DNA from: Chloroflexota bacterium
Lineage (GTDB): Bacteria; Chloroflexota; Anaerolineae; Promineifilales; Promineifilaceae
Direction: 5' to 3'
DNA length: 64,000 bases
Assembly (NCBI GenBank): GCA_018004935.1
Contig: JAGNBF010000015.1
Coordinates: forward strand, 1 to 64,000
Shown: positions 3,065 to 61,353 of the stretch, piece by piece
Position numbering within the stretch: position 1 is the first letter of the stretch
Layout of the letters: each line of letters begins with the position of its first letter
Translations under genes and position numbers: made by a program
The notes under the pieces: model-generated
What the model was told of the DNA's origin: nothing
The model's database searches: none
The model's input: only the letters and a program-made list of their open reading frames with translations

Positions 3065-3167
3065 GTAACTATTCAGACCCTAAAGGTTTTGACCTCTGGT
3101 GATTCTGGCCTCATGTTAATAAAAACCTTTAGGGTCTCTCTGGCAAAAGTGCCACCTGAATAGTTAC
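3065..3167. repeat. Long hairpin element with GTAACTATTCAG ends
   Basis: The outer arms GTAACTATTCAG (3065) and CTGAATAGTTAC (ending 3167) are exact inverses. Just inside are ACCCTAAAGGTTTT and AAAACCTTTAGGGT, also inverse. The ends resemble those of the 82-bp elements at 23202 and 59269 (GTAACTACT). It lies in the potA-potB spacer. Confidence 0.8.
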
Positions 3168-9195: not shown

Positions 9196-9470
9196 ATGAC
9201 ATATGCCTAATCGAATTTCCCCAACCCACAACCCCGCCAAGAGGGGCGGGGATTTTTTTTGGGCGGGCAAAATCGGGGCATCTCCCCCCGATTTTACCCG
9301 CCGAGAGGGTTTCCCCTTCCCGAATTGTTGATTAAAAAATAGTCAGGTAATAGGGTTTCCCCCAACCCCGCCCCAGAGGCGGGGAACTATTTCTGGTGCG
9401 GTTTTCCCCCTTCCCTTTGGGAATCGTAGGGAGATGGGTTCATTTTGGGGCGTGTGCAATCGCCCTGGAG
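9196..9470. repeat. Family A element interrupted by a truncated family B end
   Basis: A stem-loop at 9264-9300 (CGGGCAAAATCGGGG...) is followed by CCTTCCCGAA. There the left end of a B element (TTGTTGATTAAAAAATAGTC, GGTAATAGGG) begins at about 9325. The family A right end (GGGAATCG...GTGCAATCGCCCT) resumes near 9417. The B end therefore sits inside the TTCCC...GGGAA palindrome of the A element. Confidence 0.7.
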
Positions 9471-14884: not shown

Positions 14885-15218
14885 AGCATATTGTAGGCAT
14901 TACCAAGAGCAAGGGCAATCTCAATCCGAGGCCACCAGCAATTCTCGGTTTGACCTGAGCCTCTAAAATTGTAGCGGCCGCACGGCGGTTATTGTTGATT
15001 AAATGAGTAATCAGGCAATGAGTTGATTCGCCTATCCCCCGGCGATTTCCGGCGGTAAGGGGGAAACGGACTTATGGGGTCGCTCGAGCCGGTCTCCTGA
15101 CCGTGCTCAGTATGGCTCGGTGGAGACACCAGCCACAGCGCGTAAATCCTAAATTCTATTTTCTCCCCCATATATAGGGCGATTGTCTACCCCATACATT
15201 CATAATGTGCTTTCGGCT
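14885..15218. other. Intergenic stretch of repeats, no gene seen
   Basis: It holds an intergenic GCGGCCGC (14974), a family B-like end (TTGTTGATTAAATGAG, 14992) and a family T repeat (about 15075-15150) nearly identical to the one at 5185. No coding frame is convincing. Confidence 0.6.
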
Positions 15219-18061: not shown

Positions 18062-18420
18062 AAGCGTTCAGTCATATAAATTCATCCGCCAAACCCGCCC
18101 GGTCGTAATTGTTGTTTAACAAAATAGTCAGGTAATAGGGTTTCCCCACCCCTAACCCCGTCCCCAGGGCAGGGAACTTTCTCGTGTGCCGGTCATGGAG
18201 CGCGGCCGCGCTCGATAACCGGCACGCCTGGTATTTCCCCCCTCCCGCCAGAAAGCGCCGGGGGAGGGGCAAATCAACTTATTACCCGCTTAATCCTTTA
18301 ATCAACAAAAATGACCGGGATATTATTACAAAGGCCGCAGGTCTGGGGTTTAGTCCACAGGGCTTCGTCTGTTTAGCCCAGTGGTTTAATGACCGCCGGG
18401 CGAGGGAACTGAACGCTTAC
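18062..18420. repeat. Family E element interrupted by a 200-bp family B element
   Basis: The ends AGCGTTCAGTCATAT and ACTGAACGCTTAC match the inverted ends of the uninterrupted E copy at 46755-46911. Removing the 200-bp insert leaves 159 bp against 157 bp there. The interruption falls at the centre of the CCCGGTCGTAAACGACCGGG palindrome of the intact copy. Confidence 0.88.
18109..18308. repeat. 200-bp MITE-like element, family B copy 1
   Basis: The ends TTGTTGTTTAAC...GGTAAT and ATTACCCGC...TTAATCAACAA are imperfect inverted repeats. Inside are the GC hairpin (CCCCGTCCCCAGGGCAGGG) and a long stem at 18186-18225, whose centre is GAGCGCGGCCGCGCTC. Copies 2 and 3 (42146-42345, 47025-47224) are also 200 bp. 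No coding frame. Confidence 0.88.
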
Positions 18421-42052: not shown

Positions 42053-42522
42053 AACTATACTTGCCACGGTCATAAAGTGACATTTTGTTAGCGGCAACAG
42101 ATTGGTAGGTTTGGACTGAAGACCCATCCCCCTTCCCCTTCCCAGTTGTCGTTTAAAAAATTAATCAGGTAATGGAATCCCCCTACCCCTAACCCCGCCC
42201 CCAGGGGCGGGGAACTTTTCTAAGGGGCATTTTTCGGGGCGAATGCCCCGAAAAATGCCCCATGGGAATTCCCCCCTTTCCTCGGGAATCGGCAGGGGGA
42301 ATGGGGTCAATGAAGGCGTTACCCAATTAAAAATTTAATGAACAAGAGGGAAGGGGGGGAAACCCAACGGCGCGGTTTGGCGAGCGTCCGCTCGCCAAAC
42401 CGCGCCGAAAATAGTTCCCCGCCCCCAGGGGCGGGGTTAGGGGTGGGGGTGGCCTTGGATAAACCCAACACGACGATAAAGTGAGACGGCGACAGGGGAA
42501 AAAATGTCAGATTATGCCCTTT
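42053..42522. repeat. Family C element copy 2, interrupted by a 200-bp B element
   Basis: The ends match copy 1 (GGTCATAAAGTGACATTTTG; AAAATGTCAGATTATGCCC). The B element (42146-42345) sits in the TTCCC...GGGAA hairpin. Further right are the stem at 42369-42406 with perfect 18-bp arms (GGCGCGGTTTGGCGAGCG) and the CCCCGCCCCCAGGGGCGGGG hairpin. Confidence 0.83.
42146..42345. repeat. 200-bp MITE-like element, family B copy 2
   Basis: The ends TTGTCGTTTAAAAAATTAATC and AATTTAATGAACAA are as in copies 1 and 3. The internal stem at 42224-42261 is GGGGCATTTTTCGGGGC and its inverse. It is inverted relative to copy 3 and nearly identical to it over most of its length. Confidence 0.88.
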
Positions 42523-46754: not shown

Positions 46755-46911
46755 GTAAACGTTCAGTCATATATATCCATCCGCCAGACCCGCCCGGTCG
46801 TAAACGACCGGGCTATGGTTACAAAGGGCGCTGGCCTGGGCTTTTAGCCCGCAAAGCCCCGCATGTTTAGCCCGGCGGTTTGACCGCCGGGCGGGGTAAC
46901 TGAACGTTTAC
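46755..46911. repeat. Family E element, intact copy (157 bp)
   Basis: Perfect inverted ends GTAAACGTTCAGT and ACTGAACGTTTAC. Inside are three hairpins: CCCGGTCGTAAACGACCGGG, GGCCTGGGCTTTTAGCCC and CCCGGCGGTTTGACCGCCGGG. It is the uninterrupted reference for the copy at 18062-18420. Confidence 0.9.
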
Positions 46912-47024
46912 CTTCTTACACAATTACTCACGGCGATCATAACAAATAACGTAAAATTGGGTAGCTGGTCCCGCAAAAATAAGCAATTCCCACGAAAAAT
47001 GGTCCAAGCCGTAGGACAGCCTTT

Positions 47025-47224
47025 TTGTTCATTAAATTTTTAATCGGGTAACGCCTTCATTGACCCCATCCCCCCTGCCGATTCCCGAGGGATTGGGGGA
47101 ATTCTAAGGGGCATTTTTCGGGGCATTCGCCCCGAAAAATGCCCCTTAGAAAAGTTCCCCGCCCCTGGGGGCGGGGTTAGGGGCGGGGGGGATTCCATTA
47201 CCTGATTAATTTTTTAAACGACAA
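47025..47224. repeat. 200-bp MITE-like element, family B copy 3
   Basis: The ends TTGTTCATTAAATTTTTAATC and TTAATTTTTTAAACGACAA. Stem at 47104-47149 (CTAAGGGGCATTTTTCGGGG and inverse). The flanks GTAGGACAGCCTTT and GGCTGTTCGCCCTCTCG are joined without interruption at 60962-60995, which gives an empty-site comparison. Confidence 0.9.
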
Positions 47225-47286
47225 TCAGGCTGTTCGCCCTCTCGTGAAAACAAAACCCGATAAACGCCTGGAGTAAGCCCTTAGAT

Positions 47287-60571: not shown

Positions 60572-61353
60572 GATGCGGTCCTCCTTACTATGAAATTGGG
60601 GTTGTAGGGGTAAACAATTCTGACTGACAAAACAAGTGGATGACTGGCGATTGTATAGAAACTTTAACCGATCAACAATGGGCAAAATAGTGTACTGTGT
60701 GGGTCAAATCTGGGGATGGCTGGTAAAGCTTTATGGAAGTAGGATGTATGTTGTTTGAGGGCGTACGTCCTCAAACAATAACACAACGGGTTTTCCCCAC
60801 CCCTAATCCCGCCCCCAGGGGCGGGAAACTTTTTAAGGGCCGTTTTTCGCAGGCATTCGCCCACGAAAAACGGCGGGAAGGGGTTTCTCCCAGCAATTCT
60901 CAATTTAGCCAACGGTTAAAACGGTTGGACTCCAGAAGCACGCTCGGAAAATGGCCCAACCCGTAGAACAGCCTTTCCGGCTGTTCGCCCTCTCGTGAAA
61001 ACAAAAAATGGGCGTAACGATACACGTCCTCAAGGGCTGAGCTTTGCCGAAGCCCGGCTCTGCCTGTATAGAGAGTGCACAGCCTGGAAAGGCTCTGCTA
61101 CGCCCAATTGAACCGCCGGGCTATCCATAATACCAGGTCTTACGGACTAAAACAGCAGGCCAACGGCCTTCGTAACCATAGCCCGGCCCGTTTTACGGCC
61201 GGGCGGCCTCGGCACTTTTAGACGTTCAGGCCAAATTGAGAATTGCTGGGTTTCTCCTTTTCCGCTTGTCGTTAAAAAGCAGTCAGATAACATGGTGTGG
61301 GGTGTACGTCGTATTTACAAAAATGACGCACACCCCGTAATTCAGAGCGATTT
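60572..61353. other. 782-bp repeat cluster, no gene seen
   Basis: It contains a perfect hairpin TTGTTTGAGG/CCTCAAACAA (60751-60778), a family A-type core with stem at 60839-60874 (GCCGTTTTTCG...), the uninterrupted sequence GTAGAACAGCCTTTCCGGCTG and GTTCGCCCTCTCGTGAAAAC (60962-61003) that a B element splits elsewhere, a family E-like copy (about 61105-61230) and a B-type end (TTGTCGTTAAAAAGCAGTC, 61267). No coding frame is convincing. Confidence 0.7.

Follow-up and report, generated by a model that had tools for sequence, protein, structure and literature searches.

Results

A 200-bp element in split palindromes

The window, by which we mean the whole 64,000-nucleotide stretch of Chloroflexota DNA analyzed here, contains three full copies of a repeat of exactly 200 bp that has TTGT...ACAA ends and about 28 bp of imperfect inverted repeat at its termini (Table 1). 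Copies 2 and 3, with 95% identity, belong to the same subfamily (B). Copy 1 represents a second subfamily (A), which is about 82% identical to the other two copies over the first 73 bp only, and the subfamilies have in common mainly the ends and the adjoining 40 bp. Each of the three copies splits a palindrome at its axis, and uninterrupted relatives of all three split palindromes are present in the genome. The original prediction had described the three copies with the same positions, ends and inverted repeats, all of which held. Its claim that four of four copies lie in hairpin centers held only in part, as this is true of all three intact copies but the truncated copy near 9325 shows one arm only. 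The prediction had also missed the truncated copy at 14992-15066 and another just beyond the window, which ends at C88:64264.

Table 1. Elements, palindrome arms and uninterrupted reference palindromes in the window
Feature	Position	Strand	Remarks
Truncated subfamily A copy, left end only	9325..9398	+	Follows CCCCTTCCCGAA; right end lost, only left arm checkable
Truncated subfamily A copy, right end only	14992..15066	+	Preceded by CGGCGGTTA, which makes up one half of a hairpin present elsewhere
Left arm, split palindrome of E repeat, CCCGGTCGTAA	18098..18108	.	Empty form CCCGGTCGTAAACGACCGGG
Miniature element, subfamily A, 200 bp, TTGTTG...CAACAA (copy 1)	18109..18308	+	Full-length copies elsewhere in the genome mostly 85-89% identical to this copy
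Right arm, split E-repeat palindrome, AAATGACCGGG	18309..18319	.	
Left arm, copy 2, CCCCTTCCCAG	42135..42145	.	Empty form CCTTCCCAGAGGGAAGG; G duplicated
Miniature element, subfamily B, 200 bp, TTGTCG...GAACAA (copy 2)	42146..42345	+	Full-length copies genome-wide 94-98% identical to this copy
Right arm, copy 2, GAGGGAAGGGG	42346..42356	.	
Uninterrupted palindrome CCCGGTCGTAAACGACCGGG in E repeat (46755-46911)	46793..46812	.	Empty-site reference
Left arm, copy 3, GGACAGCCTTT	47014..47024	.	Empty form AACAGCCTTTCAGGCTGTT; T duplicated
Miniature element, subfamily B, 200 bp (copy 3)	47025..47224	-	
Right arm, copy 3, TCAGGCTGTTC	47225..47235	.	
Uninterrupted palindrome GAACAGCCTTTCCGGCTGTTC	60967..60987	.	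Empty-site reference for copy 3

Inside the elements, the large central palindromes differ between A and B (GGGGCATTTTTCGGGGCGAATGCCCCGAAAAATGCCCC; GTGCCGGTCATGGAGCGCGGCCGCGCTCGATAACCGGCAC) and are flanked by similar CCCCGCCCC hairpins; it is possible from their appearance that hairpin modules were swapped or inserted.

Genome-wide copy number and centering

The genome containing the window comprises 8 Mb in 229 contigs. A 28-bp end pattern, with up to two mismatches allowed, matched it 305 times and the reversed-pattern control gave no matches; the 305 terminal repeats therefore correspond to roughly 150 or more elements. The A and B repeats meet the criteria for MITEs, being short and non-coding, with terminal inverted repeats, high copy number and defined insertion sites.

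Some candidates of unusual length were rejected. A 1,970-bp end-to-end candidate (C113:15914-17883) is really two separate MITEs that flank a DEAD-box helicase, a 312-bp copy (C116:4919-5230) is a B element carrying an unrelated repeat inside, the 660 bp of a copy in L050 are due to repeats nested within an A element, and isolated ends next to unusual interiors (L185, L186, L189) have the appearance of truncated copies. One of the nested repeats, at L050:1841-2088, is a different inverted-repeat element of about 235 bp with AGGGTGTGTTTCA ends, which is nested within an A element at the palindrome GGGCGATTTGCCAAATCGCCC. Landing in palindromes might thus extend to other mobile repeats of this genome. 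One B copy is interrupted in its right end by a foldback repeat of about 106 bp (L064:4946-5053), which seems to have duplicated 8 bp, GGTAACGC.

For the analysis of insertion sites we used 63 intact copies with both flanks, taken from about 1.6 Mb of the genome; these are a sample and not a census, and were partly picked by similarity to the window copies. A perfect stem of at least 6 bp, and up to 23 bp, lies directly at the insertion point in 43 of the 63, compared to a mean of 4.8 copies (maximum 11) in 1000 permutations of the flanks, and such stems occur at only 0.67% of random non-coding positions (277,538 tests). When mismatches are allowed, 52 copies have at least 8 of 10 pairs, versus 7.3 with permuted flanks. 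Moreover, the junction is equally distant from the stem on both sides in 40 of the 43 perfect-stem copies. Given these controls, placement at palindrome centers by chance is excluded, and we regard this choice of target as demonstrated by the sequences, whereas the enzyme and the DNA shape involved are inferred. The prediction of a mobile, non-autonomous element that targets hairpin loops is therefore supported genome-wide and, as described below, in other genera: most copies lie inside palindromes, the 52 above in near-perfect ones. A convincing stem is absent from the remaining 11 copies, of which some may have been rearranged or may represent off-target insertion.

The palindromes themselves have little in common. 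The 43 perfect stems have 21 different, unrelated tops, 12 of which were used once, and those most often used are CTTCCC (9 copies), AGGCTG (6) and CCACGC (4). Across these 21 families the information content stays at or below 0.7 bit at every position and is nil at the junction bases. The sole trend is for pyrimidines on the 5′ side of the loop and purines on the 3′ side (5′-YY...RR), which could reflect either a sequence preference or the make-up of the available hairpins.

Empty sites and target duplications

The genome also contains uninterrupted palindromes of these families, at up to 18 places. Target duplications were accordingly read by comparing filled with empty sibling repeats within one genome; no orthologous strain pairs were used, and the empty sites found are not orthologous loci in a close relative. 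At 3-nt loops (TTC, GGT, AGA/TCT, GTT, TTG and CTA) the middle base is duplicated, a gain of 1 bp. For example, with [] marking the element, AACAGCCT-TTC-AGGCTGTT becomes TT[]TC, GACGATTT-GGT-AAATCGTC becomes GG[]GT, CCTTCCC-AGA-GGGAAGG becomes AG[]GA (likewise TCT becomes TC[]CT and GTT becomes GT[]TT), CCACGC-TCT-GCGTGG becomes TC[]CT, and CGGTGGT-TTG-ACCACCG becomes TT[]TG. Even palindromes (with the centers AACGGTT-AA-AACCGTT, CGGTCGT-AA-ACGACCG and CTCTCCC-TG-GGGAGAG) gain nothing: both CAACGGTT-AA-AACCGTTG and CCCGGTCGT-AA-ACGACCGGG become A[]A, and CTCTCCC-TG-GGGAGAG becomes T[]G. A few copies (L007, the L061 copy at 3101, and L094) break this odd/even rule. At asymmetric loops the element is found in both orientations, in line with a symmetric target.

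When folded as single-stranded DNA, two odd empty sites form 3-nt loops and two even ones form 4-nt loops. A single rule covers both kinds of site, namely that each strand would be cut two nucleotides into the loop, although this is an inference from sequence alone. The TA insertion with 2-bp TA duplication that is typical of IS630 is not observed, as duplications of 0 or 1 bp, without TA, emerge from the comparison of filled and empty sites; reading the flanks as TA duplications fails for most copies.

Related elements in other genera

Within the bacterial family to which this genome belongs, a degenerate form of the end pattern matched 13 of 52 genomes, with 3 hits in the controls; a scan of viral contigs with the end pattern gave no matches. 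The elements in these relatives have unrelated interiors (110-216 bp) and the same kind of ends, and they lie in the centers of hairpins of other sequences, such as GAAGCGTGATGCG-TA[]AG-CGCATCACGCTTC and CCAGGGGAT-T[]T-ATCCCCTGG. A perfect stem of at least 6 bp is present at 20 of 33 delimited elements, compared to 2.1 with permuted flanks.

In several relatives (L197, L200, L201, L208, L214, L243), AGATTGGNCCAATCT palindromes are arranged as inverted pairs that have repeatedly been split by MITEs, and an uninterrupted AGATTGGNCCAATCT inverted pair is found in the USCA_metabat.78 MAG.

Autonomous IS630-like elements

Scanning the genome collection with the end pattern also revealed a 1,232-bp element in MAG RI_153 (L237, 1152-2383) with perfect 28-bp ends, TTGAACATTAACAAATTAATCTGGTAAC. 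Its coding region consists of two frames, of which one covers the N-terminal helix-turn-helix and the other the DDE region; the latter matches the IS630 transposase family (NF033545, E=6e-30; Pfam DDE_3, 1e-15). The element lies at TCACGCT-AA[]AT-AGCGTGA, the empty form of which, TCACGCT-AAT-AGCGTGA (TCACGCTAATAGCGTGA), is present in the same MAG, and the insertion obeys the 3-nt rule with a 1-bp duplication. Two MITEs of RI_153 (L230 and L232) have ends in common with this autonomous element, and L230 matches it at 25 of 28 positions.

The genome of the window has one relative of this element, at C205:7325-8509 (1,185 bp; NF033545, E=4e-45), which is 39% identical to it in the DDE part. Its site is ACGACTT[]TAGTCGT and the empty form ACGACTTTAGTCGT (ACGACT-TT-AGTCGT) occurs elsewhere in the genome, in agreement with the 0-bp rule (T[]T). 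Further relatives lie in the stems GTGCGTT/AACGCAC (G023), GGGCT/AGCCC (G239) and GGCGCT/AGCGCC (G199), with all copies in G023 and G239 falling within one repeat; that of G306 has an imperfect stem, and no palindrome was seen at the insertion site of that of G166. Distant relatives in G398 and G008 resemble ordinary TA/CTAG insertions, in palindromes. In a tree the lineage is far from the enterobacterial IS630 transposases (branch 2.7), its inner order being unresolved. IS630 transposases of enterobacterial plasmids are about 27% identical and serve as a loose outgroup only; the flanks read as TA/CTAG in one case (L284) and were ambiguous in the other.

The 229-contig assembly yielded no autonomous element that carries the ends of A or B. 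Those of the C205 element agree with the left end of B at just 18 of 28 positions, and the best partners for the A and B ends of this genome reach 18-21 of 28, compared to 25 of 28 in RI_153. The enzyme that mobilizes A and B is thus not proven to be that of C205 or any other transposase, although an IS630-like enzyme is identified as the likely kind. A second IS630-type transposase fragment in this genome (C71, L306) belongs to another subgroup and was ruled out as a partner, having no related ends.

A slippery run, TTTTTCCCCCT, is conserved at the passage from ORF1 (GRGRKPAF-SPS) to ORF2 (LFPP) in seven divergent elements (L237 near 1472, L257 near 1454, and also L255, L256, L272, L269 and L288). 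A fused transposase would probably be made there by programmed +1 frameshifting or transcript slippage, to judge from sequence alone.

Discussion

Insertion at the palindrome axis

The best explanation, which we consider likely, is that the A and B repeats are MITEs of a Chloroflexota lineage of IS630/Tc1-mariner elements whose transposase inserts at the dyad axis of palindromes and not at TA. It rests on what is shown above, that is, the copy number, the exact centering on unrelated stems, the odd/even rule, the ends and target behavior in other genera, and the autonomous IS630-like elements in palindrome centers. That an IS630-like transposase moves the A and B MITEs is an inference. That the object recognized may be a folded hairpin instead of duplex symmetry is also inferred, and no experiment supports structure recognition.

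In the mechanism we propose, the palindrome would be extruded as a hairpin, either in a cruciform or where a fork exposes single-stranded DNA. Each of the two 3′ ends of the transposon would then attack one of two hairpin tips, at a point two nucleotides inside the loop. With a 3-nt loop the cuts would be one base apart, giving a 1-bp duplication, and with a 4-nt loop they would be flush, giving none. The cuts in the two strands appear to be symmetric, staggered by 0-1 nt, and a cruciform (or two hairpins) therefore fits more simply than a one-strand reaction. Nevertheless, the distance between the two cruciform tips is a difficulty for the cruciform model.

During Mos1 integration the target is strongly bent and unpaired target bases are flipped, with TA picked via the flipped adenine (PMC5481204). 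We therefore propose the hairpin tip as a ready-made equivalent, which would offer bent, unpaired DNA without the need for TA. The bacterial IS630 element ISY100 uses TA almost exclusively, and the titles of two older IS630 papers refer to site-specific transposition and to a preference for TA in CTAG (PMC2170065 and its reference list). As CTAG is a 4-bp palindrome, one could speculate that hairpin targeting grew from an older taste for symmetric sites. A bolder reading, toward which we lean by a narrow margin, is that this DDE lineage reads DNA shape and not sequence, attacking hairpin tips two nucleotides in, with the duplication of 0 or 1 bp set by loop parity.

Alternative explanations

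The main rival is that palindromes are recognized as B-form duplex, a two-fold symmetric transpososome simply preferring symmetric targets without any hairpin being extruded. Many DDE recombinases do prefer targets with a weak palindromic consensus (PMC5481204), and the stems, many of them no more than 7-10 bp long, are short for cruciforms to extrude spontaneously. However, with unrelated stems and no common letters at the center, symmetry itself would need to be read. Moreover, the 0-1 bp stagger tracks loop parity and falls below the 2-9 bp range of DDE enzymes (PMC5481204), and it is the distance from the stem, not that between the strands, that stays constant. We consider this explanation unlikely.

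Two others are very unlikely. Particular repeat families might be targeted by sequence, as REP-specific insertion sequences do, the palindromes being incidental. Many targets do fall in the few families listed above, as do all G023 and G239 copies in their single repeat, but one genome offers 21 distinct stems, more than half of them used once, with a consensus of only YY/RR, and relatives use other stems. Alternatively, another enzyme, such as a Y1 enzyme of the IS200/IS605 type or a tyrosine recombinase that works on hairpins in single-stranded DNA, might move the MITEs, with the IS630-like elements as bystanders. The exact cognate transposase of A and B was indeed not found in the assembly, and 0-bp insertions are typical of single-strand transposition. 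However, the MITEs have 28-bp terminal inverted repeats in common with IS630-like elements (in RI_153, L230 and L237) and match them in target behavior, and the real 1-bp duplication at odd loops would be unexpected of one-strand insertion.

The remaining two can be all but dismissed. The flanking arms, present at most intact insertions, might have been made by insertion or be outer parts of the element, but the same palindromes stand uninterrupted at up to 18 places, and the arms vary where the element does not. Random intergenic insertion, with only insertions in hairpins such as terminators or REP-like repeats surviving selection, might be entertained as this genome has abundant hairpins between its genes, but it would not have put 40 of 43 copies on the exact dyad axis when random non-coding positions give 0.67%.

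Comparison with known transposons

Elements of the IS630/Tc1-mariner group (IS630, ISY100, Mos1) resemble those described here in their DDE transposase (NF033545, DDE_3) with an N-terminal helix-turn-helix, length of about 1.2 kb, ends of about 28 bp and MITE derivatives, and the autonomous partners meet the DDE criterion for membership. In contrast to that family, which uses and duplicates TA (PMC2170065, PMC5481204), the present elements enter the centers of palindromes that are unrelated in sequence, and duplicate 0-1 bp. Insertion sequences that enter REP palindromes, including IS1397, ISKpn1, IS621, ISPpu9 and ISRm22, are similar in lying inside palindromic repeats. However, they belong to IS3, IS110, IS4, IS256 and IS5, none to IS630, and target host REP sequences (PMC1525189), whereas the stems here are unrelated, 21 being too many for one specific REP target.

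Hairpins are also central to IS200/IS605 elements and TnpA-REP (RAYT) systems, which insert without conventional target duplication. Unlike the present elements, with their long terminal inverted repeats (28-bp ends) and a DDE enzyme as candidate partner, these have subterminal hairpins at their own ends, no terminal inverted repeats and an HUH Y1 nuclease (PMC6006769, PMC8266576); the criteria for this group are not fulfilled. IS110/IS1111 elements, some of which enter REP palindromes (PMC1525189), differ in their DEDD enzyme, RNA-guided sequence match and ends (PMC11208160, PMC11187229); with a DDE_3/IS630 enzyme as candidate partner, membership is not supported here either. In the literature searched, mostly non-subscription, we found no report of IS630/mariner elements aimed at palindromes of arbitrary sequence.

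Targeting of TA is treated as a defining habit of IS630/Tc1-mariner, with base flipping in Mos1 as its structural basis (PMC5481204). The Chloroflexota lineage probably exchanged this letter-based target for one based on shape, as far as can be inferred. If the clade has dropped TA for hairpin tips, target choice in a major transposase superfamily would become directly testable. The elements would then be structure-directed transposons, with possible use as a tool for mapping or tagging hairpins. Their insertions would record which palindromes extrude, as hairpins or cruciforms, in living cells, and this targeting habit would also explain the nested repeats of these genomes.
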